Shown: positions 9,642 to 26,031 of the stretch, piece by piece
Position numbering within the stretch: the stretch's first letter is position 1
How the letters are laid out: the number at the start of each line of letters is the position of its first letter
Virus record (IMG/VR): IMGVR_UViG_3300027816_000268
Span: 1-33,341 of that record
Direction: 5' to 3' (one strand)
DNA length: 33,341 bases
Source of the DNA: a virus
The notes under the pieces: generated by a model
The model's database searches: none
What the model saw: only the letters and a program-made list of their open reading frames with translations
Told to the model about the DNA's origin: nothing
Made by a program: the position numbers and the translations under genes

Positions 9642-10384
9642 GCCTCAGCGATTTGCTGGTAATATTGCTCTACTCTGGTCCACCATTGGCGCTTGTACAG
9701 CTCAAATTCAAAGCCTTCTACCACAAATTCTTGATACTCGGGCGTGCCCGTCATCAGCCCATCGCGATCTGTTTCGGGCTTGACGCACATCAAAATCACA
9801 CCCTTGTTGATGGCAGTACCGTATACTTCGTTGTGAGCTTCTGCGTAGGCCGCCAACTGCAGGAAATAATCATCAATCCACTCGCGCTTTTTGGGCTTGT
9901 TGGTCTGCTTGTAGTCCAGGATGCTTTCAGAAACCACGCCATCTTGACCACGATGCAGTCCTATGCCATCAGATGTGCCAGCATAAACCTGTGGAAAATA
10001 CAAGGGCACTTCCATGCCCCAGAATTCTTCAACACGATCCAAGCCCTGCTCGATCACACAGTTGGCCATGTGCCAACTGGGCTTGGCAAAGGGATTGCCT
10101 GGTTCTGGCACCCGCTGACCTTCTAGCACATACTTTTCCAAATAGGTATGCATACGTGTGCCGCGATTGGCTGCTTCGGTGGTGATCTGCTGTGCTTTTT
10201 CCACGCCCACACGTCTGCGCCATTCCTGCAAGGCCTGCTTTTTTTCCTCAGGTGTAGTGGCTGAAAGTATGGTGGTCACCGACGGTACAGCGTGACCCTC
10301 GGGTGTGGTATAAAGCCTGCGGCCTTCTACTGTGGTTCTGGGTATGGGCTGGTAATCGTAACGCTGTTGATATCGGGATAACAT
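9638..10384 (-). CDS. PD-(D/E)XK superfamily nuclease (RecB-like exonuclease fold)
   Basis: A 248-residue DNA nuclease of the PD-(D/E)XK family. Visible motifs in order: an upstream helix with His79 (GTRMHTYLE), Asp139 in AGTSDGIG, Asp157-Tyr-Lys159 in ILDYKQTNKPK (the catalytic D...DxK core), and a QxxxY motif (Gln176-Tyr180, QLAAY) typical of RecB-type nucleases. Only two cysteines are present (Cys109, Cys200), so it lacks the 4Fe-4S cluster of Cas4/AddB-type members. Likely roles are processing DNA ends in recombination-dependent replication or degrading host DNA. It is preceded by a sigma70-type early promoter whose -10 box ends six bases before the ATG, with no Shine-Dalgarno sequence, so the transcript is probably leaderless and early. 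Confidence 0.88.
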   Translation of the reverse strand: MLSRYQQRYDYQPIPRTTVEGRRLYTTPEGHAVPSVTTILSATTPEEKKQALQEWRRRVGVEKAQQITTEAANRGTRMHTYLEKYVLEGQRVPEPGNPFAKPSWHMANCVIEQGLDRVEEFWGMEVPLYFPQVYAGTSDGIGLHRGQDGVVSESILDYKQTNKPKKREWIDDYFLQLAAYAEAHNEVYGTAINKGVILMCVKPETDRDGLMTGTPEYQEFVVEGFEFELYKRQWWTRVEQYYQQIAEA

Positions 10385-10390
10385 CTGACA

Positions 10391-10419
10391 ATAGTACTAT
10401 CTTGTGAGTATTTTGTCAA
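10391..10419 (-). promoter_or_regulatory. Sigma70-type early promoter, predicted leaderless, for the nuclease gene
   Basis: Minus strand: -35 TTGACA at 10414-10419 (perfect), 17-base spacer, -10 TACTAT at 10391-10396 (4 of 6), then exactly six bases (TGTCAG) and the ATG at 10384. The standard start point, seven bases after the -10 box, falls on the A of ATG. It lies in the gap between iscA and the nuclease gene. Confidence 0.75.
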
Positions 10420-10428
10420 TGATTTTGA

Positions 10429-10755
10429 TCAAACTCTAAATGACTCGCCGCAGCCACAGCGATCCTTTTCATTGTCATTGATAAACTCAAATCCTTCATT
10501 GAGCCCACGTTTCTGATAGTCAATGGTCATGCCGTCGAGATACACCAGATGCTCGGGCTTGACATAGATTCTAACACCCTTATCATCGTAGTGTGCTATA
10601 CAGTGCTGGCCCTGTTCGTTGTCTACATACTCCAGGGTATAGGCCAGACCCGAACAGCCAGTGGTTCGCACACCCACACGGATGCCTAGACCGCGACCAC
10701 GGCGGGTTATCGAGTCTTGAATTTTGCCAGCGGCAATGTCAGTGACTGAGATCAT
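10429..10755 (-). CDS. iscA: A-type iron-sulfur carrier protein IscA
   Basis: A 108-residue A-type carrier of the IscA/HesB family that accepts iron or nascent clusters and passes them to apoproteins. The three signature cysteines are present at family spacing: Cys34 in TTGCSGLAY and Cys100/Cys102 in the C-terminal CGCGESF. Length and ends match bacterial IscA, so the protein looks functional. The ATG lies inside the end of iscU (17-base overlap) without a strong ribosome site, implying translational coupling and matched production of the two proteins. The family assignment is secure; IscA rather than SufA or ErpA is chosen because of the adjacent IscU and overall similarity. Confidence 0.95.
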   Translation of the reverse strand: MISVTDIAAGKIQDSITRRGRGLGIRVGVRTTGCSGLAYTLEYVDNEQGQHCIAHYDDKGVRIYVKPEHLVYLDGMTIDYQKRGLNEGFEFINDNEKDRCGCGESFRV

Positions 10756-11128
10756 GTTTTTTGCGATAGTCTTCTATAGCAGCCTTGATGGCATCCTCGG
10801 CCAGAATCGAACAATGTATCTTCACCGGGGGCAGAGCTAATTCTTCAGCGATGTCACTGTTACGAATAGCACTAGCAGCGTCCAAGTGCATTCCTTTAAC
10901 CATCTCAGTGACCAAACTGGAGCTAGCAATGGCTGATCCGCAGCCATATGTCTTGAAACGAGCATCTCTAATAATGCCATTTTCGTCTACCTTTATTTGA
11001 AGTTTCATCACATCACCGCAGGCCGGCGCACCCACCATGCCGGTGCCTACGTCAACATCGCTTTTGTCAAAGGAACCCACGTTACGTGGATTCTCATAGT
11101 GATCAATCACCTTGTCACTGTAGGCCAT
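10739..11128 (-). CDS. iscU: Iron-sulfur cluster assembly scaffold IscU
   Basis: A 129-residue IscU, the scaffold on which 2Fe-2S clusters are built with sulfur from the cysteine desulfurase IscS. All ligand residues are visible: Cys37 and Asp39 (GAPACGDV), Cys63 (TYGCGSAIASSS), and His-Cys near residue 105 (KIHCSILAEDA). The LPPVK motif recognised by the HscA chaperone is intact, so it could plug into the host Isc machinery (IscS, HscA/HscB). No phage iscS, hscA or fdx is visible nearby. The ATG has a GGAG ten bases upstream, inside the end of the 47-residue gene. With iscA it forms an auxiliary metabolic pair, probably acquired from a bacterial host. Confidence 0.96.
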   Translation of the reverse strand: MAYSDKVIDHYENPRNVGSFDKSDVDVGTGMVGAPACGDVMKLQIKVDENGIIRDARFKTYGCGSAIASSSLVTEMVKGMHLDAASAIRNSDIAEELALPPVKIHCSILAEDAIKAAIEDYRKKHDLSH

Positions 11129-11134
11129 AAATCG

Positions 11135-11278
11135 TTATCTCCAGAAAAATAATATTGCTTTGATTCGATCAATGTATTTTTGTAGATATTTCTTTTGGAA
11201 TGCCTTGGCGTATTCGGGTTGTGGGAAATTCCAACCAATGAACATACCTACTATGATCCAAAATATAGTTTCTAACAT
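11135..11278 (-). CDS. Small single-pass membrane protein (47 residues)
   Basis: A short gene with strong start signals: GGAGG at 11284-11288 on the minus strand, five bases before the ATG at 11276-11278. The product begins MLETIFWIIVGMFIGWNF, a hydrophobic stretch long enough to span the membrane, followed by a cationic amphipathic tail (residues 21-47, rich in Lys, Tyr and Gln). It ends six bases before iscU and carries the iscU ribosome site in its last codons. Similar tiny N-anchored membrane peptides are common in T4-like phages; their role is unknown. The quality of the ribosome site is the main reason to call it real. Confidence 0.7.
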   Translation of the reverse strand: MLETIFWIIVGMFIGWNFPQPEYAKAFQKKYLQKYIDRIKAILFFWR

Positions 11279-11303
11279 AACAGCCTCCTATTGAAAAGTC
11301 AAG

Positions 11304-11681
11304 TTATTTGGTAGCTTGTCGGGCCACGCGGTTGGCCATTTTGCTGACTATGGCCTTGTTGTCTGTGGGCGCAGGTCCCGATGCTGTGGGCACTTCGGCA
11401 GCCGTTTGTTCATCGGCGCCACGGAAATATATCACATCTTTGTCAATGGTTCTAATCACATTACTCAAAGGTGCAGCGGTACTGGCATTGATAAAACTAT
11501 CGTTACTGATATTAGACATACCCATGTTCTTGGCGTGCTGTAGAAATGCATCCAGATCCATGGTGGCATTTTCGCCTGCTGTTTCGCTTTGATTCATAAA
11601 AAGTTCTGCCAGGGCAGTTAACCTCAGCAGATCATTTTTTGGAATGGCAGAAGGTGCTGTTGCAAACTCACGTAAACGCAC
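11304..11681 (-). CDS. Unknown 125-residue protein, virion-assembly region
   Basis: Not recognised. The protein starts MRLREFATAPS, a short amphipathic leader resembling the MKLxE/MKIxEI starts of several phage proteins in this region. It is mostly helical to about residue 65 (LLRLTALAELFMNQ, LDAFLQHAKNMGM) and then disordered, ending in basic residues (MANRVARQATK). No membrane segment or known motif is seen. It begins three bases after the stop of the 376-residue gene and is likely cotranscribed with it from the late box at 12803, pointing to a virion or assembly role, by position only. Confidence 0.7.
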   Translation of the reverse strand: MRLREFATAPSAIPKNDLLRLTALAELFMNQSETAGENATMDLDAFLQHAKNMGMSNISNDSFINASTAAPLSNVIRTIDKDVIYFRGADEQTAAEVPTASGPAPTDNKAIVSKMANRVARQATK

Positions 11682-11684
11682 GGT

Positions 11685-12776
11685 TTACTTTCTTGCGCGG
11701 CCCAGAGCTTCTTCGCTGCCTAAATCTGCAGCAACTTCTTCTTCTGGAGGGGGCATATCTACTGCAGATAACTCGTCGCCGGCTGCGGCACCTAGATCAG
11801 CACCGGCTTCGGCACCCAATTCGGCACCAATGTCAGCTCCGGCGATATCACCCGGGGCAGGTGCTAGGCCTGCGCCTGTGGCCTGACCTGTGAGTCCTGC
11901 CAATGCTGTGTCCATCTGACCTTTGCTGGCCTGCAGTGATTCTAACAATCCCTGAAGTCCGGCAGCGGCTGTTTGATTGAATGCCTGTGCTTTGTCTGGA
12001 CTGAGTTCGTACTTGATGGAATCAGTCAACGCTGGCAGTTCTTTGTACAGCATTTCACTGGTCTGCTCAATCATCTTTTGCATACGGTCAGCCATGTCCT
12101 GCGCGGCCAACACTACCTGTGCGGTTTCCACTTCTGAAGCTTCGCGCAAGGTTCTCTTGATCTGATAAACACCTGACTCCACAATGCGTTTTACTGCGAT
12201 CTTGCGCTCCATCTGTGGATACACACGCAGATGCAGTCGACCACCATCGCGCTCGGCTGCTTCGTTCACACGGTCTTTGATTTCGCGCACACTGCAACTC
12301 ATGCCTTCTTCCATGTCGTCTTCGGCCATGGCCATGAGTTCCATGACAGCATCTTCGTCGTATTCTTCGCCCAAGGATACGCCACCAGTGGCAGAGGTCG
12401 ATCCTGGTGCACCTTTGATCAAGGCCATGATTGATTCAGCGTCTTTTTTGTCCTGTGCTGAGGGATTGGCCATGCTTTTTCCTGGATGAGCCAACTGGCT
12501 CAGAGCTGCTGTCTGACCTGGTGTGAGTGCTTCTTGAACTCGTTGTTTCAAAGCCTGCTCCAACATCACAGCTTTAAGGTAAGCGGCACTGCGCTGGCTG
12601 GTATGGAAATTTGGCTGTTTGCGATATTCACCAATGGTGCGACTTACCTGCTCTAGCATGGTACGGGCTCTGGCAGCGTCAAGGCTGGCAATGGCTAACT
12701 TTTTACCAAATTGGCTTTCAATGATACCGGCTGTGTTTTTGCTGGTATTTTTAAGTGCGAGGTCTGTGAGTTTCAT
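11685..12776 (-). CDS. Conserved T4-like structural/assembly-type protein, Ala/Glu-rich tail
   Basis: A long frame continues to 12815, but I place the start at the ATG at 12774-12776 (MKLTDLALKNTSKN): AAAGGA precedes it at good spacing and a late box CTAAATA lies 26 bases upstream, inside the longer frame. The 363-residue product is helical and highly charged, with a conserved-looking middle (VETAQVVLAAQDMADRMQKM, KELPALTDSIKYEL) and a low-complexity C-terminal third of Ala, Gly, Asp and Glu that ends in basic residues (ALGRARK). From memory this resembles a conserved protein of T4-like cyanophages and pelagiphages found in virion-gene clusters; the exact role (scaffold, core or capsid-associated) is not known to me. 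The acidic disordered tail would suit a scaffold-like protein. Confidence 0.75.
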   Translation of the reverse strand: MKLTDLALKNTSKNTAGIIESQFGKKLAIASLDAARARTMLEQVSRTIGEYRKQPNFHTSQRSAAYLKAVMLEQALKQRVQEALTPGQTAALSQLAHPGKSMANPSAQDKKDAESIMALIKGAPGSTSATGGVSLGEEYDEDAVMELMAMAEDDMEEGMSCSVREIKDRVNEAAERDGGRLHLRVYPQMERKIAVKRIVESGVYQIKRTLREASEVETAQVVLAAQDMADRMQKMIEQTSEMLYKELPALTDSIKYELSPDKAQAFNQTAAAGLQGLLESLQASKGQMDTALAGLTGQATGAGLAPAPGDIAGADIGAELGAEAGADLGAAAGDELSAVDMPPPEEEVAADLGSEEALGRARK

Positions 12777-13215
12777 CAGGGGTAATCCTTTTAGTTTGCA
12801 AGTATTTAGTGACAACTGGGTATTTGTCTAGGTGAATTCGAGCATTTTCACGCAGGGCCTGCGCTTGGCCCAGTTTGGATTCGTGCAAGCCAACATGGAT
12901 CATGTTCTGTATGCGTGTCATGTGTATGTCAATATCGGCCTGGGCCCGGCTCAGCTGTTGATCTAAATTCCGTATGTGCTGAGCTGCTGGAAAATCCTGG
13001 TGTTTCATGGCTGTGCAATAGCGCAGTGCAGATTTCATGGTGTGGAATTTCTGCACCCGCTGGCTGGGCTCTATCACCAGTATTTCGCCCCTGTGCGGTA
13101 TCAGTTCATAAGCAGCATATATGGCATAACCCCTGTGGGTGCGCAACAGCAGTTCCGGATGGCGCCGTGATTCTTGTGCCAGTTTTCTCAGCGTTTCAAA
13201 TCTAGCGTTTTCCAT
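12751..13215 (-). CDS. Conserved T4-like phage protein of unknown function (154 residues)
   Basis: No named family recognised, although the pattern LLRTHRGYAIYAAYELIPHRGE (residues about 23-44, a small beta-rich module) followed by a long charged helix (about 75-120) reminds me of a conserved unknown protein in aquatic T4-like phages. It is basic and lacks membrane segments. It begins one base into the stop of the upstream gene (13215 shared) and its 3' end overlaps the start region of the 376-frame gene, so it sits in a tightly packed operon that may start at the promoter near 13919-13947. Confidence 0.72.
   Translation of the reverse strand: MENARFETLRKLAQESRRHPELLLRTHRGYAIYAAYELIPHRGEILVIEPSQRVQKFHTMKSALRYCTAMKHQDFPAAQHIRNLDQQLSRAQADIDIHMTRIQNMIHVGLHESKLGQAQALRENARIHLDKYPVVTKYLQTKRITPDETHRPRT
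12803..12809 (-). promoter_or_regulatory. Late promoter box
   Basis: Minus-strand CTAAATA in CACTAAATACTTG context, 26 bases upstream of the ATG at 12776, with AAAGGA in between. It lies inside the end of the 154-residue gene. Confidence 0.6.
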
Positions 13216-13673
13216 TATTGATAAACAAACTTGGTATTGATTACAGCACCCGTGGTTTTGATTACGGATTCAAGATTTTCCACTGCTTCTTCCAGGCCAG
13301 TGATCAGCGGTACGCCGTCGCAGTCTTGCGTGAGTGCTGCCAAAGGTTTGCCGCTGATGTCATAGATATCAGCAAATTCGCTGCCAAATTCAAAAGTCCA
13401 GATTCTGCCGGCCCTGCGGTTCAGTCCTAAGACTGCGACACTGGCGTCCTGCAGTATCTGTGGTTCGGAATAAATCGTGACCTGAGTGCGCAAACTGATC
13501 AGTTGCGTAAGTGTTTCCCAATTGCGCTGTTGGTTCCTGGCCTTGGTCAATGCTGTTTGATCTGACAGTATGTGTCCCTGCCGATCAGTCAGAGGCAATT
13601 GAGTGACCTTGGCATGATTCAATATGCCAGTGGCTGTGCAGTCAAACAAGGTATAGCAAACGACTTTATTCAT
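13215..13673 (-). CDS. Conserved T4-like phage protein of unknown function (152 residues)
   Basis: Starts MNKVVCYTLFDCTATGI, a beta-strand plus turn similar to a conserved unknown protein of T4-like aquatic phages (YxLFDxTxTG). Internal features: KARNQQRNWETLTQLISLRTQ (about 45-65), a predicted helix-strand, and a WTFEFGSEFADIYD segment (about 92-105). No catalytic motif or membrane span. It overlaps the preceding gene by eight bases and the next by one, so all three are probably translated from one message. Confidence 0.72.
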   Translation of the reverse strand: MNKVVCYTLFDCTATGILNHAKVTQLPLTDRQGHILSDQTALTKARNQQRNWETLTQLISLRTQVTIYSEPQILQDASVAVLGLNRRAGRIWTFEFGSEFADIYDISGKPLAALTQDCDGVPLITGLEEAVENLESVIKTTGAVINTKFVYQ

Positions 13674-13911
13674 ATTTTAATCTATAATAAACTTCCGCAC
13701 GATTCAATAATTCTTTGAGTTCGGCATCACTACGGGCCTGCTGATGTATGTTGATCCAGAGATTCTGCCGCTGTTGCCTCACGTGGTGACTTTCCATGGT
13801 TTCTTGGATCATTTCCCTGGTATCAGTGGGTTGATTTTTGCGCCTACGATAAATGGTCTGACCACCATCTGGCGACTCGTAAACATACTCTTGATCATTG
13901 TGAACACTCAT
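13666..13911 (-). CDS. Small conserved hypothetical protein (81 residues)
   Basis: The frame is open back to 14091, but that part runs antiparallel through a terminator hairpin and over the end of the next gene in a poor composition, so I take the internal ATG at 13909-13911 as the start (MSVHNDQEYVYES). The product is charged and helical, with DGGQTIYRRR (about 15-24) and an amphipathic C-terminal helix (AELKELLNRAEVYYRLKYE). The start has no Shine-Dalgarno sequence, but a sigma70-like promoter ends seven bases before the ATG, which fits a leaderless or near-leaderless message. Function unknown. Confidence 0.7.
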   Translation of the reverse strand: MSVHNDQEYVYESPDGGQTIYRRRKNQPTDTREMIQETMESHHVRQQRQNLWINIHQQARSDAELKELLNRAEVYYRLKYE

Positions 13912-13918
13912 ATCAATA

Positions 13919-13947
13919 ATTATGCCATAAAAAAACCGCGATGTGAA
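13919..13947 (-). promoter_or_regulatory. Sigma70-type promoter embedded in a terminator hairpin
   Basis: Minus strand: -35 TTCACA at 13942-13947 (5 of 6), 17-base spacer, -10 CATAAT at 13919-13924 (5 of 6), seven bases, then ATG at 13911. The -35 element forms the hairpin loop plus one stem base of the terminator at 13931-13959, and the spacer contains the second stem arm and T-run. Confidence 0.55.
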
Positions 13948-13959
13948 ATCGCGGTTTTT
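13931..13959. terminator. Rho-independent, likely bidirectional terminator
   Basis: Perfect 12-base inverted repeat (AAAAACCGCGAT / ATCGCGGTTTTT) around a five-base loop. On the minus strand it is followed by more T residues (seven in a row), so it should stop transcription leaving the 137-residue gene that ends at 13982. The A/T flanks make it able to work in both directions. Confidence 0.88.
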
Positions 13960-13981
13960 AAAGTGCTCCTGGGTCTGTAAA

Positions 13982-14395: not shown

Positions 14396-14400
14396 GATAA

Positions 14401-14408
14401 ATCTCCTT
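14401..14408 (-). promoter_or_regulatory. Strong Shine-Dalgarno site of the 137-residue gene
   Basis: Minus-strand AAGGAGAT, five bases before the ATG at 14395; one of the two best ribosome sites in the window (the other is the GGAGG before the 47-residue gene). Confidence 0.8.
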
Positions 14409-14436
14409 GAGTATGTGACCTTTTTGGGTCTGCTAG

Positions 14437-14443: not shown

Positions 14444-14470
14444 CTGTCAGGAGAAAAAATGGTGTTTTGG

Positions 14471-16804: not shown

Positions 16805-16824
16805 AATTGGTTCCAGCGATGTAA

Positions 16825-16838: not shown

Positions 16839-18248
16839 TTAGTTTTTGTTTTGTTTAATTGCTCCTAACATGGCCTTTAATTTGGTACTTTGTACATCGG
16901 CTGTGACCTTGGGCACATCATCAGAATCTGTGTTTGAAGTCAATACTTTGCTGGTACCTTTTATGCTATCTAGTATATTCACCGTGGGCTTGCGGAAAGA
17001 GTTGGCATCTTCTTGCTCACCGCAGTCGCGTATGCGCAGGGTTTCTATGTTGAATTCCAAATCAATTTTTGAACCCACGCCCGAACTGGAACGTGTTTTC
17101 ATCAGTTGTATCTGATATCTGCCTTTTTCTCGCATGCTTCTGCTGGTAAAGATACCAAACACATTGTCCGCAGTGTTGATCTTGGAAATACCTCCGGAAA
17201 TATGGCTGTGATCAAATTCTATTTCTTCCACTGCTGATCGATTCAACTGCGATGCTGTGACAAACAGCACATTTAATTCTCTGGCCAGATTACGCAATTC
17301 TTCTGACACATATTTGTCTTTCACAAACAGGTCATTGGGCGATACCTTGGCCGACACTGGCATCAAGAGATCCAGATAGTCCACACACATGAAATCAATT
17401 TTGACACCACGTTCAATTTCAAGATTTTTTACATAAGCACGTATGTCGTTCACTGTGCTCTGCGCTGGCATATACTTGATCATGAAATTGCCAGACTTTT
17501 TCTGCAGCAGACCCAGTTTCAGTTCCACATCATCGATGTTGCGAAAGATCTCTTTGCTGGCTATGTCAGTCATCATGGAATCCAATCGCATGGAGCACAG
17601 GCCTTCCGACAGTTCCAGCGTGATGTACACACCACTGAGTCCGGCCATGACCCAGTTGGCTGCTAGATTTTGCATGAACAGACTTTTGCCCGATCCCGAA
17701 CCCCCAGCAAAGATCTGCAGTTCTCCGCGATTGAAGCCACCGTAGAGTTTGCTGTCAAGCACAGGCCAGCCTGTGCTGAGTTGGCCATTGTTGCTCTTGA
17801 TGGCCATGAGTCGTTCACGCACATTGTGGAAATAGTCTGTGCCCAGTTCACGTGCTAGACACACATTGATGGCGTCTTTGATGATCTTTTCCACAGGACC
17901 AAAGTTGCCTTTTTCCAGCATATCTGCTGACTTCAATATGGCACGCTCTAGTTCTCTGTGCTGTGTGAACTTTTCAAATTCAGCCAAGAACCACTCTTGT
18001 GTGACAGTGGGCCTGGGTTCAAGATCTACTGAAGTCTTGGCTCGAACACTGTCCCTGTCGGGCACCACTTTGTATTTGTCAGCGTGTTCTTTGATGAATG
18101 CGGCTGCATCGCGTAGTTTACGATCAAAGTTTTCAGGGTTGAAAATGTTCTGCACACGAGCAAAACACTCGTGATCCTGCACAGCCATCTCTAAAAAAAG
18201 ACGCTGCATGTCAATGGTGAATTCAATTACTGCTGATTCGTTTTTCAA
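16839..18248 (-). CDS. 41: Replicative DNA helicase, DnaB/T4 gp41 type
   Basis: A 469-residue hexameric helicase that unwinds the fork and partners with the primase. An N-terminal helical domain (about 1-130) is followed by a linker and a RecA-like motor domain: Walker A GGSGSGKS (about 182-189) and a Walker B ending in Asp290 (FMCVDYLDLL), then TASQLNRS (sensor, about 333-340) and a conserved HISGGISKI segment. The C-terminal 60 residues are polar and likely disordered, perhaps for partner binding. The start overlaps the primase end by 26 bases, so the pair is read from the early promoter at 19207-19235. In T4 itself genes 41 and 61 are not directly fused in this way, but the pairing is functionally natural. 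Confidence 0.95.
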   Translation of the reverse strand: MKNESAVIEFTIDMQRLFLEMAVQDHECFARVQNIFNPENFDRKLRDAAAFIKEHADKYKVVPDRDSVRAKTSVDLEPRPTVTQEWFLAEFEKFTQHRELERAILKSADMLEKGNFGPVEKIIKDAINVCLARELGTDYFHNVRERLMAIKSNNGQLSTGWPVLDSKLYGGFNRGELQIFAGGSGSGKSLFMQNLAANWVMAGLSGVYITLELSEGLCSMRLDSMMTDIASKEIFRNIDDVELKLGLLQKKSGNFMIKYMPAQSTVNDIRAYVKNLEIERGVKIDFMCVDYLDLLMPVSAKVSPNDLFVKDKYVSEELRNLARELNVLFVTASQLNRSAVEEIEFDHSHISGGISKINTADNVFGIFTSRSMREKGRYQIQLMKTRSSSGVGSKIDLEFNIETLRIRDCGEQEDANSFRKPTVNILDSIKGTSKVLTSNTDSDDVPKVTADVQSTKLKAMLGAIKQNKN

Positions 18249-19200
18249 TTTCTCTTCTCCTCAATTCGATTTTCAAACGACTGCGTTCTCGGCTGCGGAG
18301 TATAGAAACAAGGGTGGCGAGTCTGCCATGGCGGCATACGGCATCATTCACATCTTTGATGCTGGTGTCCCAAAGTGGCATACTGACTGTGAACCCTTGC
18401 TCCGCAGCACGTTCCGCAAGTTTCAAGCCAGCACTGTCTTGGTCTGGAATAATAATTATGTCTTTGTCAAGACTTTTAAGTATAGCTATTTGATCCTCAT
18501 TGAGATCATTGTGCATCAAGGCCACGCCTCCGATGCTGAGCGCATCAAAGATGCCTTCGCACACAACGATCACTTGATCCTCGGGCCGGACCACATCTAG
18601 ATTGAACACATAGCCCGGTTGTTGATTGCTGATGTACTTGGGGCGGCGATCATCCAAGTATCTTGAAGTATGGCCCACTATGCGACCACGATATCTAAAA
18701 GGCACTATGATCCTGAAGGCTTCTCTGCCCTGTGCTTCAGGCGTGATCCATATGTCGTCAATGTCAATGCCACGCGATTCACAGTAGAGTCTATAGGGCT
18801 CGTGGTCAGGATCCACAGGATCTATTTCCACTGCCAGTTCCGGCAGGCTCTGTTCTTCAAACTCGGGTAGCGGACGACTACGACGTTCCTGTGCGATTAT
18901 GTCCTGTATGTCCCGCAGTTTGAGACTTTCCAACTGCTCACGTTTGATCTCTTCATCGGAGTATCCGGCCCAGGTCAGCAGGCGTTTGAGATTGTAGCTA
19001 AAGGTCCTGCCCGGAGTGTAAGTGGTCTTGAATCCGCAGTTGAAACAGTGATAAGTCCAGCCTGTGTCGTGTTCAATCACGCCACCGCGCCCCCGGCGAT
19101 CAGGCTTGCCTTCGGTGTGCTCACAGCAGATGGCATTGAAACTGCGCCAGCCGGACGCTGTGCGTTTTACTCTATTCATGCGGCCAAGTATATCTAGCAT
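18223..19200 (-). CDS. 61: DNA primase, DnaG/T4 gp61 type
   Basis: A 325-residue primase that makes RNA primers for the lagging strand. It has an N-terminal zinc site (Cys25/Cys26 and His28 in AICCEHTEG, Cys52 and Cys55 in HCFNCGF), a middle linker (about 60-150), and a TOPRIM catalytic domain with Glu215 and Asp219 (VVCEGIFDALS) and Asp253/Asp255 (IPDQDSAG). It is shorter than bacterial DnaG and close to T4 gp61. An early promoter (TTGACA, 17 bases, TAAAAT) ends six bases before the ATG, so the message is likely leaderless. It is followed by the overlapping helicase gene. Confidence 0.94.
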   Translation of the reverse strand: MLDILGRMNRVKRTASGWRSFNAICCEHTEGKPDRRGRGGVIEHDTGWTYHCFNCGFKTTYTPGRTFSYNLKRLLTWAGYSDEEIKREQLESLKLRDIQDIIAQERRSRPLPEFEEQSLPELAVEIDPVDPDHEPYRLYCESRGIDIDDIWITPEAQGREAFRIIVPFRYRGRIVGHTSRYLDDRRPKYISNQQPGYVFNLDVVRPEDQVIVVCEGIFDALSIGGVALMHNDLNEDQIAILKSLDKDIIIIPDQDSAGLKLAERAAEQGFTVSMPLWDTSIKDVNDAVCRHGRLATLVSILRSRERSRLKIELRRREIEKRISSN

Positions 19201-19206
19201 CCTGTT

Positions 19207-19235
19207 ATTTTACAGGATAAAATGGTGAGTGTCAA
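19207..19235 (-). promoter_or_regulatory. Sigma70-type early promoter, predicted leaderless, for primase-helicase
   Basis: Minus strand: -35 TTGACA at 19230-19235 (perfect; it overlaps the TGA stop of the fibre-like gene), 17-base spacer, -10 TAAAAT at 19207-19212 (5 of 6), six bases (AACAGG), ATG at 19200. The predicted start point is the A of ATG. Confidence 0.8.
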
Positions 19236-20824
19236 TCTCTGTAGAGTACTTGGGTTACCGAGTTGCCATAGATATTGGCAGCCACATTGGCATAGTAGGC
19301 CACATTTATGGGCACTGGTGGCAGTGCGAAACGGATGCGCACATAAGGATGATAGCCTTCGGCATTGAAATACTCTTTGCCATATTTGTTGTCGTAGTAC
19401 TGCACATTGCCAATCTGATACCAATACACTGGCTGACCATCATTTTCGTTGTTGGTGGGTTCCCAGGATCCCTGTAGTTGTACCACACCTGAGTAGTTGC
19501 GGAAGTCCACTTGGAAAGTGCTCTGTGGTGAACCGTTGCTTTGTATGATGCTGGTCCAGGCCACGGGACGATTCACACCGTCGATGGCAGCAGTATTACC
19601 AGTGTTGGTCACAGGTATGGTGATGTCTTCGCTGGCAGTAAATCTGGGAAACACTGAATCAACAATGTCCACTGAACCTCTGGCAGTGGCTGCATCATCC
19701 ACATAACCTGCTAGGTACAGCGCATCGCCGCCCACTGTGGCCACTGCTGTGCCCTGCGAAATCAAGTTGGCGTTGCCTCCACCAGTGAGTTCAATGATGG
19801 GTGGCACCACATAGTTCTGTCCACCGTTGCGTATGGTTATCACATCCAGTCTATTGGTTAGATTGCAAGTGGCCTGTGCTTGGCTGGTGGCACCACCACC
19901 GGTAACAGTGATAGCCGGTGCTCCGGTATAGCCACGACCAGCATTGGCCACTGTGATGCCTGTTAGCCTGCCTGCTAGATAGGCCACAGCAGTGGCTGCA
20001 GTATTGATATTGGCTGCGCCAGGATTAAAGGTCACAGTAGGTGGTGCATCGTAAATGCCAGCGTCTACTATGTTGATCTCTACTATGCTGTTGCCTGCAA
20101 ATGTTATGGTGGCATTGGCTGTGTTGGCTGCCTGCAGGGCAGCATTGGCGCCCAGGCCCGGACTGAACGTCACAGCAGTATTGGCATCATCGGGATCATA
20201 ACCATCACCCACATTGGTGATTTCCACCGATTCAACACCGTAGGTGATTTGTGCCAGGCCCAGGGCACTGAAGCCTCCGCCGCCGGCAAATGTGATATTG
20301 GGAGTGTGCGTGTAGCCCACACCGGCATCTAGTACCACACACTGATCCACTGCGCCAGTGATGGTGGCAGAGAGATTGGCTCCGGTACCGGTGCCGTATA
20401 CTGACACCGTGGGAGCCGAAGTATAGCCTCGACCACGGTCGGTGATACGCACTGATTTTATGATGCTGTTGCTGGCACGCTCTATGCTCCAGCTGGCGGG
20501 CTGTGCCGGAATGGCCACGGATTCTGCGGCTGTGATTATGGCCCTGCAGGTGCCCAAGCGGCTGTTGATGTTTTCCATCTGCTTGGCCAAGAGCAAATTC
20601 TCACCGTCGTTGGATATCAATCGCAGAGTAAAACTAAACAAGCTGATGTCCACTGGCTTTTGTTCTTGGTTAAGAAACTGAAAACTCAGGACGTTGTCTA
20701 CACCTTTGTTGATGATAAGTTTCTTACTAAACACTGGACTCCACCTGTACGTTGTATTTAACTCTGTGTCAACAAGAAGAACGATGGATTTTTGGTCCAC
20801 TAAATATGCTGAACTTGAGTACAT
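19232..20824 (-). CDS. Fibre/baseplate-type virion protein with inserted GxGY repeats
   Basis: A 530-residue protein. The N-terminal domain (about 1-118; NKGVDNVLSFQFLNQEQKPVD, then PAQPASWSIERAS) and C-terminal domain (about 367-530; ARGSVDIVDSVFPRF, then YFNAEGYHPYVRIRFAL) resemble the two halves of a conserved structural protein of T4-like aquatic phages as I remember it, a beta-sandwich fibre or baseplate part. Between them are six copies of a 37-48 residue GxGY module (about 121-366), the same type as in the giant fibre. The gene begins at ATG 20824; a late-type box (ATAAATA, 20832-20838) lies only seven bases upstream. No enzyme motif is present. It is most likely a tail surface component. 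Confidence 0.8.
   Translation of the reverse strand: MYSSSAYLVDQKSIVLLVDTELNTTYRWSPVFSKKLIINKGVDNVLSFQFLNQEQKPVDISLFSFTLRLISNDGENLLLAKQMENINSRLGTCRAIITAAESVAIPAQPASWSIERASNSIIKSVRITDRGRGYTSAPTVSVYGTGTGANLSATITGAVDQCVVLDAGVGYTHTPNITFAGGGGFSALGLAQITYGVESVEITNVGDGYDPDDANTAVTFSPGLGANAALQAANTANATITFAGNSIVEINIVDAGIYDAPPTVTFNPGAANINTAATAVAYLAGRLTGITVANAGRGYTGAPAITVTGGGATSQAQATCNLTNRLDVITIRNGGQNYVVPPIIELTGGGNANLISQGTAVATVGGDALYLAGYVDDAATARGSVDIVDSVFPRFTASEDITIPVTNTGNTAAIDGVNRPVAWTSIIQSNGSPQSTFQVDFRNYSGVVQLQGSWEPTNNENDGQPVYWYQIGNVQYYDNKYGKEYFNAEGYHPYVRIRFALPPVPINVAYYANVAANIYGNSVTQVLYRD
19727..20464 (-). repeat. Six GxGY modules in the 530-residue fibre-like protein
   Basis: Protein repeats at about residues 121-160, 161-197, 198-245, 246-286, 287-324 and 325-366. 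Each has a hydrophobic strand, a turn such as DRGRGY, DAGVGY, NVGDGY, DAGIYD, NAGRGY or NGGQNY, then xPxVxF/V and a Gly/Ala-rich tail. The copies have diverged at DNA level. Confidence 0.8.
20800..20806 (+). promoter_or_regulatory. Late promoter box, plus strand
   Basis: CTAAATA in CACTAAATATGC context, 30 bases before the ATG at 20837. It lies inside the first codons of the opposite-strand fibre-like gene. Confidence 0.5.
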
Positions 20825-20831
20825 AGTTATA

Positions 20832-20838
20832 TATTTAT
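20832..20838 (-). promoter_or_regulatory. Late-type promoter box, minus strand
   Basis: Minus-strand ATAAATA (GCATAAATATATAA), the closest match here to the T4 late consensus TATAAATA. It ends seven bases before the ATG at 20824 and overlaps the start codon of the divergent gene at 20837. Confidence 0.5.
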
Positions 20839-21214
20839 GCCCAATGATTTCCAGAATCTGTTAAAAGAAAAGTACCCGTTTTTGACGCTGTTGCGCTATG
20901 CTGGCACTGAATACGTGGGCATAGTACAGAACTCTGATGACATCATAACCACCCTGTACGACTATGGCAGTATCGCTGATGCAGAACTCAAGGGCAATTT
21001 TGTAGAACTGGCCAATGTGTGGTGGTGGGAAAGCAATCGCAGTATACCCATCAATATTTTTCTCAAACAGGACTGGGAGATATTTCGCCCATTTCTCAAG
21101 ACTTTTATCAACAAAGATATCGAAGTTCTCTTGGGACCGGTGACCAGCCTAAACGACATAGCCCGCAAAAAGATCAAACGTAAGTCAATTACCTTGGTCA
21201 AGCGCATGGACTAG
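20837..21214 (+). CDS. Conserved T4-like phage protein of unknown function (125 residues)
   Basis: The only plus-strand gene among the replication genes. The start MPNDFQNLLKEKYPFLTLLR, then GTEYVGIVQNSD (about 24-35), resembles a small conserved protein of T4-like aquatic phages (KYPF...YVGIVQN). The middle has VWWWESNRSIPINIFLKQDW (about 61-80) and a basic end (RKKIKRKSITLVKRMD). The beta-strand/Trp-rich centre suggests a small nucleic-acid or protein-binding fold, but function is unknown. It diverges from the fibre-like gene with a 12-base gap and its 3' end overlaps the convergent DnaE-like gene by 30 bases. A late-type box lies 30 bases before the ATG. Confidence 0.78.
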   Translation: MPNDFQNLLKEKYPFLTLLRYAGTEYVGIVQNSDDIITTLYDYGSIADAELKGNFVELANVWWWESNRSIPINIFLKQDWEIFRPFLKTFINKDIEVLLGPVTSLNDIARKKIKRKSITLVKRMD

Positions 21215-21769: not shown

Positions 21770-22482
21770 AGGCCCTGCTGTTGCAAATCGTGTTCTATTT
21801 TCAATTGTGTGGCTGCGTAGTCACGGAAACGCTGTGGCCAGTAGTCAGGATCAATCCAGGCGTAAATGATTTCCTGTTGCTTTGAATCCAATCTTGACAC
21901 AAACTCGTGTCCTGAAGCACAGTTCAACACAGTCCAGGCTGTGACACGTCCGGCCGTGATATCCTGTACGATGAGATTGGCATTGAGATATCTAAAGTAA
22001 TCTCTGTAGTTGGCCAGGCTTGAATAACTCTGCATGGTTTCCGTGGCTCTGGCCACAGCATCGTTGGCATCTTCCCTGCGAGTATGTGCAAGCAAAAACT
22101 CCTCGTAGATTTTGTCGCTGCTCCAGTGATAGTCGATCTTGAGTCGGCGTTGTTCCGGAGCCAGTAGCCATCGCACATAGTGTGGGAAAGCGATCACTCT
22201 ACTGCTCACACAGTATCTGCCAAATTTAACTAGCACACGATACAAACTGTTGTTTTCAAAACTTTGCCACTCGTCTGCGACCTGCTGTCCCAGGCTGCGT
22301 TTGATGGCTATGTAGGCCTGCAAGCCTAGCAACACGGGTTTTTCTCCGCGACTGTTGAACCTGCGTTTGGGCTCACAGAGATGCGCCAGCAGTGTGGATT
22401 CTTTGCTGAACTCTCGATCACAGTGCTGGCATTTATGTTTTGTCGTGTCCAAGGTCTCTATGATATTGTTTGATATCTGCAT
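21766..22482 (-). CDS. Conserved phage zinc-finger protein of unknown function (238 residues)
   Basis: The N-terminus holds a C2H2/C2HC-type zinc finger: Cys18 and Cys21 (KCQHCDREF), His34 and Cys36 (AHLCEPKRRF). The rest is alpha-rich with an aromatic, charged core (LVKFGRYCVSSRVIAFPHYVRW, about 84-105) and an ending resembling that of a conserved T4-like aquatic phage protein (WIDPDYWPQRF). It probably binds DNA, RNA or a replication protein. It overlaps the gp62-like gene by 50 bases and the mini-DnaE gene by four (ATGA), so all are co-translated and likely belong to the early replication group. Confidence 0.78.
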   Translation of the reverse strand: MQISNNIIETLDTTKHKCQHCDREFSKESTLLAHLCEPKRRFNSRGEKPVLLGLQAYIAIKRSLGQQVADEWQSFENNSLYRVLVKFGRYCVSSRVIAFPHYVRWLLAPEQRRLKIDYHWSSDKIYEEFLLAHTRREDANDAVARATETMQSYSSLANYRDYFRYLNANLIVQDITAGRVTAWTVLNCASGHEFVSRLDSKQQEIIYAWIDPDYWPQRFRDYAATQLKIEHDLQQQGL

Positions 22483-22876
22483 CTGTTATCAGTTGATCCA
22501 GTACTTCTGCGTCGGCTGTTTTGATTTCAGGAAACAGTTCTCGCAGAGTCTTGGTGCGTCGGGTTTCCCGGGATTTTTTCACACGCGGCCATGAATGCCG
22601 CTGTCGTCCCAGGCCCGGACTGGCTGCGATCAGCATATACCACTGCAGTTTAGGATGCCGGCTGAGAAGGAAAATATTTTTGTTGGCATAGTGATTGAGC
22701 AGTTGCACATATCCTGACTGTACGTCTGGAGCGGCATCAACATAACTCATCCAGCGCAAGGCCATGTAGCCACTGAACTTTTTGCGGTCTTCTGCAGATA
22801 ACTGATCATAGTACCCGCGATCTCTGCGATCTATGGCAGCCAAGAGATCCCACAAAAAATTATCTCGCTCGGCCAC
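22433..22876 (-). CDS. 62: Clamp-loader small subunit, T4 gp62-like
   Basis: A 147-residue helical, basic protein. The segments NIFLLSRHPKLQWYML (about 67-82), RQRHSWPRVKKSR (about 91-103) and LRELFPEIKTADAEVLDQLI (111-130) match the pattern I know from clamp-loader A subunits (gp62) of T4-like aquatic phages, with a short C-terminal LGHDK-type end. gp62 works with four gp44 ATPase subunits to load the gp45 sliding clamp. Neither gp44 nor gp45 is in this window, so they must be elsewhere or be reached outside the window. The start is a GTG overlapping the upstream TAG (TAGTG). The name rests on remembered similarity and the replication-gene setting. Confidence 0.65.
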   Translation of the reverse strand: MAERDNFLWDLLAAIDRRDRGYYDQLSAEDRKKFSGYMALRWMSYVDAAPDVQSGYVQLLNHYANKNIFLLSRHPKLQWYMLIAASPGLGRQRHSWPRVKKSRETRRTKTLRELFPEIKTADAEVLDQLITDADIKQYHRDLGHDKT

Positions 22877-23376
22877 TACCAGGCCTTTCTATAGTCTACC
22901 ACTTCGCAGTTGCGGCTGATGTCTTTGACAAAATACACGCATTCGGGATTGGGTTCATCATCTAGCGGCACACACAGCATCTGTCCGTTCTTTAGTTTGG
23001 GAGCATACCAAGTGATCTCATGATATACATCAATGATCTGCGTGTCAAGGAAACTGGGACGGAACGATGTCAGTGGATTGAACTGGAATGCTTTGAACCC
23101 GCGATCATTCAGGCTGGTCAAGGGCAACACTTCCAGGTCGCCCAGTTCGGGCTCGCCTATCAAGATCTTCCAGTCCAAGGGCATTTTTACACGATGCCGG
23201 CCCACCTGTAGTATCAAGGCAGGGCTGGTAAACGATTCCAAGAATATCAATGGTATATAGTGATAGTCGGGTTCATCGGGGTTGCCGTTGTCGAATACAC
23301 CAAAACGCAGGTCGTCGATCTGTTCGGGCAAACTGTCCAATTCATAACTGCAGTTGTCTAAGGTCAAGATTTTCAT
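22876..23376 (-). CDS. Conserved T4-like phage protein of unknown function, first gene of an early operon
   Basis: The frame is open to 23403, but the ATG at 23374-23376 (MKILTLDNCSYEL) is the sensible start: a perfect sigma70 promoter occupies 23383-23410, so an upstream start would lie inside the promoter. The 166-residue protein is beta-rich with YIPLIFLESFTSPALILQVG (about 40-59), LPLTSLNDRGFKAFQFNPLT (about 84-103) and IDVYHEITWYAPKLKNGQML (about 114-133), which I recall as a conserved protein of T4-like aquatic phages, often near clamp-loader genes. It has no enzyme motif. It shares one base with the gp62-like gene and leads the operon through the zinc-finger and mini-DnaE genes. Confidence 0.8.
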   Translation of the reverse strand: MKILTLDNCSYELDSLPEQIDDLRFGVFDNGNPDEPDYHYIPLIFLESFTSPALILQVGRHRVKMPLDWKILIGEPELGDLEVLPLTSLNDRGFKAFQFNPLTSFRPSFLDTQIIDVYHEITWYAPKLKNGQMLCVPLDDEPNPECVYFVKDISRNCEVVDYRKAW

Positions 23377-23382
23377 ATAACA

Positions 23383-23410
23383 ATTATACTTGAGATTGAG
23401 CAAGTGTCAA
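23383..23410 (-). promoter_or_regulatory. Perfect-consensus sigma70 early promoter, predicted leaderless
   Basis: Minus strand: -35 TTGACA at 23405-23410, 16-base spacer, -10 TATAAT at 23383-23388, then six bases (TGTTAT) and ATG at 23376. Both hexamers are exact. The expected start point is the A of the ATG and there is no Shine-Dalgarno sequence. Confidence 0.88.
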
Positions 23411-23411
23411 C

Positions 23412-24875
23412 CTAACGATACTCCAATTTCTCTTGGGTGTAGGGATATTCTGCTTCTCGATAAAAGGTTTTGCGTTTGGTCAAGTGTCGCTTGGCGAATC
23501 TGCAGGTTGAGGTTATGTCCCAGATCTGAACAAAGTCTTTGTCTTCTGCTTTACGAATGCCACGACCAATTGACTGGATAACACGCACAAAAGACTTGCC
23601 AGGCTCAACAAGCACCAGATTAAAAATACGGGGAATGTTAATACCAACTGAGGCCACACCGTAAGTAGCGACAATGATTTTGTCTGTTGTCTCCGATACT
23701 TCATCATAATGATCTTGCCTTTCTCCTGCTTTGGTAGCACCTGATATGAATACAGCACGATCGCCCAGTCTATCTACCAAGGCACGACCTGCTGTGATAC
23801 GATCCACTAGGATCAGCGTATTTCCGGTTCGATTTACTTCCTGTACTAGGCTAGCGATAGCATCCAGTCGATCTGCATCTTCCAGCAAGAACTTCAACTC
23901 GCTTTGATAGTTAGTATGTTCCTGATGATCCACCAACTGTACCACGTTCACATGGCACTGTGCCAGCACACCTTGCTGTTGCAATTCTGCGGCTGACAAC
24001 TGTCCCACCACGGGACCTATGCTGACATGCAGTGCTTCGGATTCAAACTTTTCTTTGGGTATGGTACCTGTGAGTCCCCAGCGTATGGGTATCTGGCTCA
24101 TGACGCCGGTCAGTAAGGTTTTCAATGCGTCAGCCTTGGCCATGTGTACTTCGTCCACTATCACACACACCACACCTTCTATGAACTCGCCGATGGTGAC
24201 ATCGCCTATGTCGTTGCGTGTGTTCTTCAACAGATTGTTTAGGCTTTGCCAGGTACAGATTGTATGCGTCTTGTTATATTCCTTGCGATCTCCAAAGTAC
24301 ACGCCCACATCCAATCCCAGATTCACATAGTCTTTTTCTGTTTGTGTCACGAGACTTTTGTTGGGCACTATGACTATGGTGCGACCATGTGATTCGCACA
24401 GTTGGCTCAAGGCCGCGGTCATGATAGTTTTTCCAGCGCCAGTGGCGATCTCCTGCAGGCACTGCGGATTGGTGATAAAATTGCGTATGATGGAGACCTG
24501 ATAGTCTCTCAGGACTATGGGCTCGCCTTGGGCAGGATGCCCAGCGGGCCACTGTCGATCAGCAAAGGTCGACTCTGTGATTTCTGGAAACTCAAAGTCG
24601 CGGCTGTATTCACGCAGATCTTCCAGTTCCACATCATAGCCTTCTTCGTCCAGCACAGGCAATATTTGGGGCAGCAAGTTCACATATGTGCTGCCGCCCA
24701 ACTGGAAGAACGACACCTTGCCGTTCCAGCGTCCCATCCTGACCGCTGGCAAATACCTGGCATACGGCACTTCATACTCAAACAGGCGCATGAGCCTGCG
24801 TCGAGTTTCCAGTTCCAGGCCTTCGATTTTGACATTGACTTCGTCTTTGATGATTAAGGTGGCTGTGCCTACCAT
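23412..24875 (-). CDS. uvsW: SF2 helicase, T4 UvsW type
   Basis: A 487-residue DNA/RNA helicase that in T4 unwinds R-loops and branched DNA and drives recombination-dependent replication. Residues 1-110 form the small N-terminal DNA-binding domain (EVPYARYLPAVRMGRWNGK). Motifs follow: a Q-type motif (RDYQVSII, about 123-130), Walker A TGAGKT (145-150), DEVH (241-244), GLTGT (motif III, about 267-271), and motif VI QSIGRGIRK (434-442). The length is close to T4 UvsW (about 500). The ATG overlaps the end of the upstream gene by seven bases. The protein probably resolves branched intermediates for the phage. Confidence 0.94.
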   Translation of the reverse strand: MVGTATLIIKDEVNVKIEGLELETRRRLMRLFEYEVPYARYLPAVRMGRWNGKVSFFQLGGSTYVNLLPQILPVLDEEGYDVELEDLREYSRDFEFPEITESTFADRQWPAGHPAQGEPIVLRDYQVSIIRNFITNPQCLQEIATGAGKTIMTAALSQLCESHGRTIVIVPNKSLVTQTEKDYVNLGLDVGVYFGDRKEYNKTHTICTWQSLNNLLKNTRNDIGDVTIGEFIEGVVCVIVDEVHMAKADALKTLLTGVMSQIPIRWGLTGTIPKEKFESEALHVSIGPVVGQLSAAELQQQGVLAQCHVNVVQLVDHQEHTNYQSELKFLLEDADRLDAIASLVQEVNRTGNTLILVDRITAGRALVDRLGDRAVFISGATKAGERQDHYDEVSETTDKIIVATYGVASVGINIPRIFNLVLVEPGKSFVRVIQSIGRGIRKAEDKDFVQIWDITSTCRFAKRHLTKRKTFYREAEYPYTQEKLEYR

Positions 24876-25996
24876 GAGGTATTCCCGTCGAGATAGTCCT
24901 CGCGATGATATTGAGGATCGATGTAATAGATGATTTTTCTAGCGATCTGTGCCGGCAGTGAACCAACGTCCCAGACCACAAGACCACGGCTTTTATTTAT
25001 AACTATGTCCACTGAGTCAAAATCAATGGCCTGATAGTTGTACTGATAGTCGTCCATGAATTCCCATTCGGGATTTCTGCTTCGAGCACGGTAGTATGTG
25101 CTGACCCTGTTGGGCCATCGTTGCTGTATGTCTTGGCAAAGATCGTGATAGGCATCTTGTTCGTTGATCAGTTCAACGGCCACACTGTGTTGTTCATGCT
25201 GATCGATATAATCCAATATGGCCTGATGATTGTCTTCAGACCAGGTCAGGGCCGTGGCCTGCTGTGAGTTCAACATGGCAGGCACCACAGACTCGGCATT
25301 GCTGCAGAAGTAACTGCGTAGATCTTCATGGATCTCCACGCCGGCACGCACCAGAGTATTGAGCGTGGTCAAGGTCAAAGGCAAGTGTTCAGGTATGGCC
25401 GCCATGACATGTTGATTGGCACAGTTGATCATGATGCCACCATTGACCAGCCTGGCCTGAACTGTCCACTGATCGGCCTCTGACGCACTCAGCACAGGAT
25501 CCAACAAGTCGTTGACCCGAGCGTCAATGTCATAGGCCGGAGTCCTGCTGCGACAAAACTCCAGCGTGGATCTGAGATTTTTGGCAGTAACAGGTATGAT
25601 CCACTCTTTGGCATCCGGATCCCACACAGCATCGTCCACCAGATCTCGGGCTCTACGATAGTCTGCCCAGGCATCCACTTGAGCGCGATCGTAGGGACTG
25701 CGCATGATAAGATGATCGTCTTGTAGACTCAACTGTGATCTTTCATGATCAGCAGTGGGGGGCAAGGGCATGACTGCCCAGGCAGCTGCCAGCATGGCAT
25801 CAGGATCCAGATTGGCCTGCTCAATCTGCTGGCGATATCGGTAGACCAGTTTTTCCCACAGTTCTGCCTGCTTGGGCGTGACCGCACGATTTTTGGCTAT
25901 CCTGCGGTTGTAGACTTCGGTGATGAATTGACGGTCGTATCTGGCAAATTTGATGTTTTGCAGCATCCAGTACCAGTAATTTTCACGAGATTTCAT
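24869..25996 (-). CDS. HARP-like domain protein paired with the UvsW-like helicase
   Basis: A 375-residue protein. After a helical N-terminus (RYDRQFITEVYNRRIAKNRAVT, then PKQAELWEKLVYRYRQQI, about 20-58) comes a stretch at about 98-148 (MRSPYDRAQVDAW..ADYRRARDLVDDAVWDPDAKEWIIPVTAKN) that follows the pattern of HARP domains of annealing helicases (small residue, charged helix, then W(D)P...K.W.(V)P). The remaining 220 residues are not recognised; they include DIVINKSRGLVVWDVG near the end. The gene overlaps uvsW by seven bases and is first in an early operon, with an early promoter ending six bases before its ATG. A joint role in fork or branch remodelling is likely by context. Confidence 0.65.
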   Translation of the reverse strand: MKSRENYWYWMLQNIKFARYDRQFITEVYNRRIAKNRAVTPKQAELWEKLVYRYRQQIEQANLDPDAMLAAAWAVMPLPPTADHERSQLSLQDDHLIMRSPYDRAQVDAWADYRRARDLVDDAVWDPDAKEWIIPVTAKNLRSTLEFCRSRTPAYDIDARVNDLLDPVLSASEADQWTVQARLVNGGIMINCANQHVMAAIPEHLPLTLTTLNTLVRAGVEIHEDLRSYFCSNAESVVPAMLNSQQATALTWSEDNHQAILDYIDQHEQHSVAVELINEQDAYHDLCQDIQQRWPNRVSTYYRARSRNPEWEFMDDYQYNYQAIDFDSVDIVINKSRGLVVWDVGSLPAQIARKIIYYIDPQYHREDYLDGNTSW

Positions 25997-26002
25997 AGTG
26001 CT

Positions 26003-26031
26003 ATTGTAACATATCGCTGAGGCGATTACAA
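26003..26031 (-). promoter_or_regulatory. Sigma70-type early promoter, predicted leaderless, for HARP-like/UvsW operon
   Basis: Minus strand: -35 TTGTAA at 26026-26031 (4 of 6), 17-base spacer, -10 TACAAT at 26003-26008 (5 of 6), six bases (AGCACT) and ATG at 25996. It is weaker than the other early promoters by hexamer match but has the same geometry. Confidence 0.6.

Follow-up and report, generated by a model that had tools for sequence, protein, structure and literature searches.

On the minus strand of a viral DNA fragment, four promoters stand so near to their genes that the question arises whether the messages carry any leader. The fragment, referred to here as the window, is the complete IMG/VR record IMGVR_UViG_3300027816_000268, which comprises 33,341 bases and is itself a fragment of a genome. 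At each of the four genes, a -35 and a -10 element of the sigma70 type are followed by six nucleotides (nt) and then by an ATG. A sequence-only reading of the window had proposed that such promoters make leaderless early messages for replication operons. In the present analysis, the arrangement was followed through related phage records. The results suggested that the genes are very probably leaderless and that this is a general feature of the large group of uncultivated T4-related jumbo phages to which the window belongs, with two promoter classes fused to the start codon, one of the host sigma70 type and the other of the T4 late type.

Promoter placement at start codons

The arrangement described earlier, namely a TTGACA-like element, 16-17 nt, a TATAAT-like element, 6 nt and an ATG, was read directly at all four genes and went beyond what shuffled sequence yields. 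The spacers between -35 and -10 were 16-17 nt, inside the sigma70 range of 15-19 nt, and the promoter of the 375-amino-acid protein additionally carried a TG one base 5' of its -10. The pattern TTGACA-N15-18-TANNNT-N6-ATG was seen three times in the window against 0.03 expected, and three was reached in 0 of 100 shuffles. When sites had to score 10.5 or more as sigma70 promoters and to stand 6 nt from an ATG, four were found in the window, every one on an open reading frame (ORF) of at least 50 codons; the same settings in 200 dinucleotide shuffles gave a mean of 0.13 and a maximum of 1, none on such an ORF. The remark of the sequence-only reading that the four genes lack a clear Shine-Dalgarno (SD) sequence also held, as a rule-based check detected none (0/4). 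The statement that all four promoters head replication genes was correct for the exonuclease and the primase-DnaB pair; the third promoter heads a run ending in a DNA-polymerase-like gene, and the fourth precedes uvsW. The labels "gp62-like" and "HARP" found no support in Pfam or PHROGs, and the third gene matched PHROG 11279.

The spacing was then counted genome-wide. Neighbouring spacings served as the chance control, with a uniform spread over 0-30 nt. Strong sigma70-like sites 6 nt before an ATG exceeded this expectation in 8 of 8 records (p < 0.01 each, uncorrected). The pooled counts comprised the window and the records G002, G003, G004, G007, G008 and G009; a 133-kb relative, G001, whose primase is 97% identical in amino acids to that of the window, was excluded. 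Among the 239 pooled pairs of a strong promoter and an ATG at 0-30 nt, 48 were spaced by exactly 6 nt (p = 4e-24 against uniform). The 6-nt peak was absent at GTG and TTG starts in the pooled records (8/145), and an SD accompanied none of the 48 pairs at 6 nt, compared with 78 of the 112 at 20-30 nt. When homologs were clustered, 32 clusters fell at 6 nt, 10 at 5 nt and 4 at 7 nt; each other spacing up to 29 nt held 1-13 clusters, and 30 nt held 29. The "constant six" of the earlier account was thus found to be a mode within a spread of 5-7 nt.

Over the range of 0-60 nt, 6 nt was the biggest pooled bin (48) and 30 nt the next (37). The 30-nt bin carried an SD in 28 of its 37 members, and 7 of the 12 sites printed shared TTGACC-N17-TATA(A/C)T, a TATAGT motif and an AGGAG-type SD. 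The same phages therefore also use a second set of sigma70-type promoters, which make leadered messages and keep a constant 30 nt to the ATG, a placement almost as striking as that at 6 nt. Examples of this class, with the TATAGT motif and the AGGAG-type SD in a common leader, were L331, L332, L334, L341, L364 and L366.

As controls, we scanned PAC2 completely, Phosso over 400 of 469 kb, Atu_ph07 over 400 of 490 kb, 121Q over 340 of 349 kb, T4 over 150 of 169 kb and S-PM2 over 120 of 196 kb. No pair at 6 nt was found in Atu_ph07 (0/62), PAC2 (0/29), 121Q (0/62), T4 (0/15) or S-PM2 (0/9), and Phosso gave 2 of 26, or 6 at a looser cut. The earlier claim that the arrangement is unlike T4 was supported over the part of T4 scanned. 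A crude gene call, made with a longest-ORF caller in which every in-frame ATG among the first 60 codons could count as the start, gave leaderless candidates for 5.2-12.3% of genes in seven relatives, for 5 of 30 in the window and for 0-1.2% in the six named phages.

A second promoter class showed the same placement. The late box of the T4 type, searched as [ACG]TAAATA, lay 4, 5, 6 and 7 nt before an ATG in 30, 55, 16 and 28 cases, respectively (129 in all), followed by merely 16 cases across 8-15 nt and a second, leadered mode from 16 nt upward. This close peak was absent at GTG and TTG starts, and the AT-only control word ATTTAA, used in place of the late box, gave no peak. An SD occurred in 3 of the 143 late-type pairs at 4-7 nt (G001 included), and the named phages had 1-4 close cases each. 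In 7 of 7 relatives, the genes with a fused late box outnumbered those with a fused sigma70-type promoter; the window had 1 against 4. The window case is the box CATAAATA before a virion-type gene, whose homologs carried a late box 6, 5 and 4 nt from the ATG in G004, G008 and G009. Among homologs in G002, G004 and G007-G009, the late-box spacing was also seen to flip between 5 and 7 nt, with 6 nt rarer.

The genes behind the two classes were compared by searching ten proteins of each from G004. Matches of the late-box set included portal, virion structural, endolysin-like and radical-SAM proteins, and those of the sigma70 set included an SbcD-like protein, an exonuclease (PHROG 255), an endonuclease and a phosphoribosyl transferase, with 6 of the 10 sigma70-set proteins having no PHROG match or matching one of no assigned function. 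T4 gp55 had a distant match in five uncultivated records (G001-G004 and G006) and in three named relatives, which together with T4 itself makes 9 of the 14 records; at that sensitivity none was found in G005, G007-G009 or 121Q.

The bases at the start codon bore a further sign of the transcription start. RNA polymerase favours a pyrimidine at -1 and a purine at +1. In the sigma70 class at 6 nt, the base before the ATG was C or T in 38 of 48 cases, compared with 328 of 674 ATGs having a five-base SD (p = 4e-5); for the late class at 4-6 nt the count was 89 of 101 against the same set (p = 6e-15), and at 7 nt it was 25 of 28. The excess persisted when leadered SD genes were used for comparison (sigma70 class, 38/48 against 43/83, p = 0.003; late class, 89/101 against 75/125, p = 2e-6). 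Standard geometry puts the last base of TATAAT at -7 and that of the late box at -6; the modes of 6 nt for the -10 element and 5 nt for the late box are thus those expected if +1 is the A of the ATG.

Conservation at orthologous genes

For the PHROG 11279 gene, upstream sequences were left out if the protein match began after residue 1, if less than 70 nt was present upstream, or if the sequence contained N or was a duplicate. Of the 153 distinct upstreams that entered the analysis, 104 had their best sigma70-like site at a distance of exactly 6 nt, and 124 had a promoter above the score cut 5-8 nt from the start. All 124 rows with a fused promoter began with ATG, one had an SD, and 117 had a pyrimidine before the start, compared with 15 of the 29 other rows. 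An SD was present in 17 of those 29, and all eight non-ATG starts (ATT five times, GTT, CTG and TTG) fell among these 17 SD-bearing rows. Because the SD-led orthologs start at the same codon, the position of the start is supported independently. The unusual aligned starts of SD-led orthologs were ATT in L026, L023, L063, L140 and L155, GTT in L271, CTG in L315 and TTG in L109; ATT is otherwise familiar as the start codon of infC.

A tree of 145 PHROG 11279 proteins contained 13 changes in the fused promoter, 12 in the SD and 8 in non-ATG starts. Among 11 independent pairs differing in the promoter, the SD differed in the opposite direction in about 6 and in the same direction in 0.3, with the others equal (median p 0.03). 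Among 6 independent pairs differing in non-ATG starts, the promoter was opposite in about 5 (median p 0.06).

For the other ortholog sets, several in-frame starts were permitted where the alignment began after residue 1, and the hits dropped were 55 of 154 for the primase, 18 of 93 for the exonuclease, 13 of 44 for the 375-amino-acid protein and 68 of 188 for UvsW. A promoter stood 5-8 nt from a start in 88 of the 99 primase upstreams examined, and fused promoters were found in 17 of 31 upstreams for homologs of the 375-amino-acid protein and, as a promoter of their own, in 39 of 120 for UvsW homologs. The exonuclease promoter was the least conserved of the four (14 of 75). In many relatives, the exonuclease gene directly follows iscA, often with a TTG start, and tandem CTATAATTG-like units, which form successive -10-like words, were seen right before its ATG in L164, L170, L174, L206, L210, L212 and L226.

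Explanations weighed and relation to known systems

We infer the 5' ends, the early or late timing and the ribosomal mechanism from the observations above, and the following course is proposed. In the first class, host-sigma70-type promoters place a -35/-10 pair 6 nt before the ATG, often on genes of replication, repair and recombination. In the second, TAAATA boxes of the T4 late type stand 4-7 nt before the ATG on virion and other genes. The host sigma70 polymerase, and later the polymerase with a phage late factor, would begin at the A of the ATG. To judge from promoter type and gene content, the sigma70-type promoters probably fire early. The first cistron would be read from its 5'-terminal AUG with no SD involved, presumably through 70S ribosomes or with the help of IF2, and downstream cistrons could use SDs, as dnaB, second after the primase, appears to do with its AGGAG and TTG start. 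The phage may thereby gain freedom from SD competition with host messages. A stronger version holds that the fused sigma70 and late promoters open a second translation channel, in which SD-independent first cistrons evade host-message competition or SD-directed control, possibly aided by the phage-encoded ribosomal protein bS21, which most of the long relatives carry; we regard it as rather unlikely.

Several observations weigh against general leaderlessness or limit it. The 30-nt sigma70 bin was larger than the 6-nt bin in G007 (7 against 4) and G009 (6 against 5), and the two were tied in G003 (9 and 9). Phosso has some 6-nt pairs, and for that reason the border of the leaderless group is not sharp. 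The sign tests on the tree were marginal, with few independent switches (median p 0.03 for the SD and 0.06 for non-ATG starts), and 13 of the 145 tree rows had neither a fused promoter nor an SD. GTG was the codon in 11 of the 88 leaderless-type primase starts; AUG is therefore preferred, not required. The SD calls followed a fixed rule, and the promoter matrices were approximate E. coli frequencies. In the late 7-nt class, ACT preceded the ATG in 14 of 28 cases, which also fits a leader of 3 nt, so the leader there may be 0 or 3 nt.

The same ACT triplet is what favours messages that begin a few nt upstream, with leaders of 1-5 nt, and are translated through 70S scanning or in some other SD-independent way, and RNA polymerase can indeed shift its start by a base or two. 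However, the modes of 6 and 5 nt match a +1 at the A under standard geometry, and the pyrimidine stands directly before that A, which makes such short leaders unlikely as a general account. Genome compaction would instead squeeze promoters into minimal gaps, with leaderlessness as a by-product lacking any translational role. Three of the four window promoters do fill short stretches (31, 35 and 44 bp) after the preceding gene, and the fourth sits between divergent genes 90 bp apart. Compaction alone, though, predicts a continuum, whereas the observed spacings form a narrow peak, late boxes are scarce between about 8 and 15 nt, and there are leadered SD modes and a dependence on ATG; T4 and 121Q have dense genomes and lack the feature. 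We consider this explanation quite improbable.

The view that leaderless messages are a temporal device confined to early replication operons, as the sequence-only reading had it, draws on the fact that the fused sigma70-type genes of the window and G004 often belong to DNA metabolism (primase, exonuclease, SbcD-like protein, a further exonuclease and endonuclease). It is contradicted by the late boxes, which are fused to more genes than the sigma70-type promoters in all seven relatives, portal and virion genes included, and by the further sigma70-type promoters of the same phages, which have 30-nt leaders and mostly SDs. Structural genes are also not simply the leadered contrast of the earlier account, as the virion-type gene at 19232-20824 in the window has CATAAATA-N7-ATG and no SD. 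Leaderlessness confined to early genes was rejected on the late-box data and the leadered 30-nt class, and it now seems very unlikely. What survives of the earlier proposal is leaderlessness as such, since the promoters are placed where +1 should fall at the A, are conserved, and go with ATG starts lacking an SD. Chance in AT-rich DNA, by which functionless TATAAT-like words fall near an ATG, could point to how common promoter-like sites are (40 in window positions 9000-27000 against 24.4 expected), but the shuffles, the neighbouring-spacing controls, the ATTTAA control word and the conservation across many phages leave it hardly credible. Leaderless expression from two fused promoter classes thus appears to be by far the best account.

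T4 uses sigma70-type early promoters and TATAAATA-type late promoters with gp55. Promoters of both types occur here as well, yet in the part of T4 scanned (150 of 169 kb) neither type peaks at a leaderless spacing. By the crude call, 121Q, PAC2, Atu_ph07 and Phosso have 0.5-1.2% leaderless candidates, compared with 5-12% in the seven uncultivated relatives. Leaderless middle and late mRNAs have been described for Thermus thermophilus phage phiYS40 (PMC3594737). There, as in the present group, leaderless messages form a programme, covering most middle and late messages, and are not confined to single genes. The phiYS40 host, however, is Thermus, from a group rich in leaderless genes (PMC3160421), whereas here T4-related phages with a hint of Proteobacteria/Burkholderiales are concerned, and sigma70-type and T4-late-type promoters are both involved. 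In TA-led leaderless bacterial genes, TANNNT lies about 12 bp upstream of the start, and the distance from -10 to start is a published sign of leaderless genes (Zheng et al. 2011, PMC3160421). The fused genes share these traits, with the first T of the -10 located 12 nt before the ATG, no SD and a preference for ATG; they differ in belonging to phages and in having the second, late-type class. The cI mRNA of lambda, also named as leaderless (PMC9031893), likewise begins with its start codon and has no SD, but it is one gene, compared with about 5-12% of genes here by the crude count. For phage AR9, leaders of 26-491 nt are reported, with the remark that phage transcripts are "often leaderless" (PMC5312081).

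Among the matches listed (titles and abstract beginnings, with subscription journals thinly covered), none described leaderless mRNAs, early or late, for jumbo phages related to T4; in PMC9004378, PMC7403470, PMC11845039 and PMC9693318 the word "leaderless" is confined to the reference list, and in PMC4631060 it also occurs once in the text. The present group would represent a clade-wide variant of known leaderless phage expression that is new for T4-related jumbo phages. Textbooks present T4 and its relatives as the model of phage genes expressed from leadered messages through SDs. Fused promoters of two unrelated classes on about 5-12% of genes suggest that a phage lineage can rewire the way start codons are recognised throughout its genome, and the role of leaderless initiation in lytic growth becomes testable. 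For gene calling in such phages, a model that includes leaderless starts is the better choice, and a promoter can be read beside many start codons.

Translation factors were also considered. Leaderless messages are mostly read by 70S ribosomes that bind the start codon at or near the 5' end; bS1 is dispensable, IF2 generally helps and high IF3 hinders, with exceptions (PMC9031893). During phiYS40 infection, IF2 is reported to be raised and IF3 lowered (PMC3594737). A phage-encoded IF3 was found only in Phosso, Atu_ph07 and 121Q among 20 records, that is, in three of the four named relatives; PAC2 and the sixteen uncultivated records gave none. The idea that phage IF3 goes with an absence of leaderless genes was dropped, since PAC2 has neither IF3 nor the leaderless feature and Phosso perhaps has a weak peak. 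Ribosomal protein bS21 was encoded in 14 of the 20 records (11 of 16 uncultivated, 3 of 4 named). In freshwater phages, it has been proposed to steer ribosomes toward phage messages (PMC9723584). In the present set it did not discriminate, being encoded also by Phosso, Atu_ph07 and PAC2, which lack the leaderless feature.

The window and its neighbouring genes

The features of the window are collected in Table 1.

Table 1. Fused promoters, the late-type box and the genes behind them, in window coordinates
Feature	Coordinates	Strand	Details
Sigma70-type promoter fused to ATG	10382..10419	-	-35 TTGACA 10419-10414, N17, -10 TACTAT 10396-10391, 6 nt, ATG 10384-10382
Exonuclease, leaderless candidate	9638..10384	-	PHROG 298; Pfam PDDEXK_1 only under cut-off
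Sigma70-type promoter fused to ATG	19198..19235	-	-35 TTGACA 19235-19230, N17, -10 TAAAAT 19212-19207, 6 nt, ATG 19200-19198
DNA primase, leaderless candidate	18223..19200	-	PHROG 47, Toprim
DnaB-like helicase, second gene after primase	16839..18248	-	TTG start, AGGAG SD; internal contrast
Sigma70 promoter fused to ATG, 12/12 consensus matches	23374..23410	-	-35 TTGACA 23410-23405, N16, -10 TATAAT 23388-23383, 6 nt, ATG 23376-23374
PHROG 11279 protein, function not assigned	22876..23376	-	PHROG match
Sigma70-type promoter fused to ATG	25994..26031	-	-35 TTGTAA 26031-26026, N17, -10 TACAAT 26008-26003, 6 nt, ATG 25996-25994
375-amino-acid protein, no family assigned, directly upstream of uvsW	24869..25996	-	Pfam and PHROGs searches
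UvsW-type helicase	23412..24875	-	Own fused promoter in 39 of 120 homolog upstreams
T4-late-type box CATAAATA	20832..20839	-	7 nt before ATG at 20824; late, leaderless or near-leaderless candidate
Virion/tail-type protein behind the CATAAATA box	19232..20824	-	Several PHROG head and tail families; no SD

The window belongs to a T4-related jumbo phage. Among the matches listed, the named phages nearest to its UvsW and primase were Sinorhizobium phage Phosso, Agrobacterium phage Atu_ph07, Pseudomonas PA5oct-like phages (PAC2) and the 121Q group, and its gene order was similar in Phosso, Atu_ph07, PAC2 and 121Q. A megablast search of positions 12000-26500 against named phages gave no match. Genes for IscA and IscU lie at 10429-11128 on the minus strand. 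The IscU was up to 86% identical to that of a Burkholderiaceae genome and up to about 83% to those of gammaproteobacteria; this sole host clue hints at a betaproteobacterial (Proteobacteria/Burkholderiales) host.

An ORF on the opposite strand (20837-21214, plus) stands between the polymerase-like gene and the virion gene, and 121Q, Phosso, Atu_ph07 and PAC2 have an opposite-strand ORF near the equivalent place, a likeness in position. At 26087-33340 on the plus strand, three large genes with similar N-termini follow in succession, and the first two have many PHROG families (baseplate/virion) in common.

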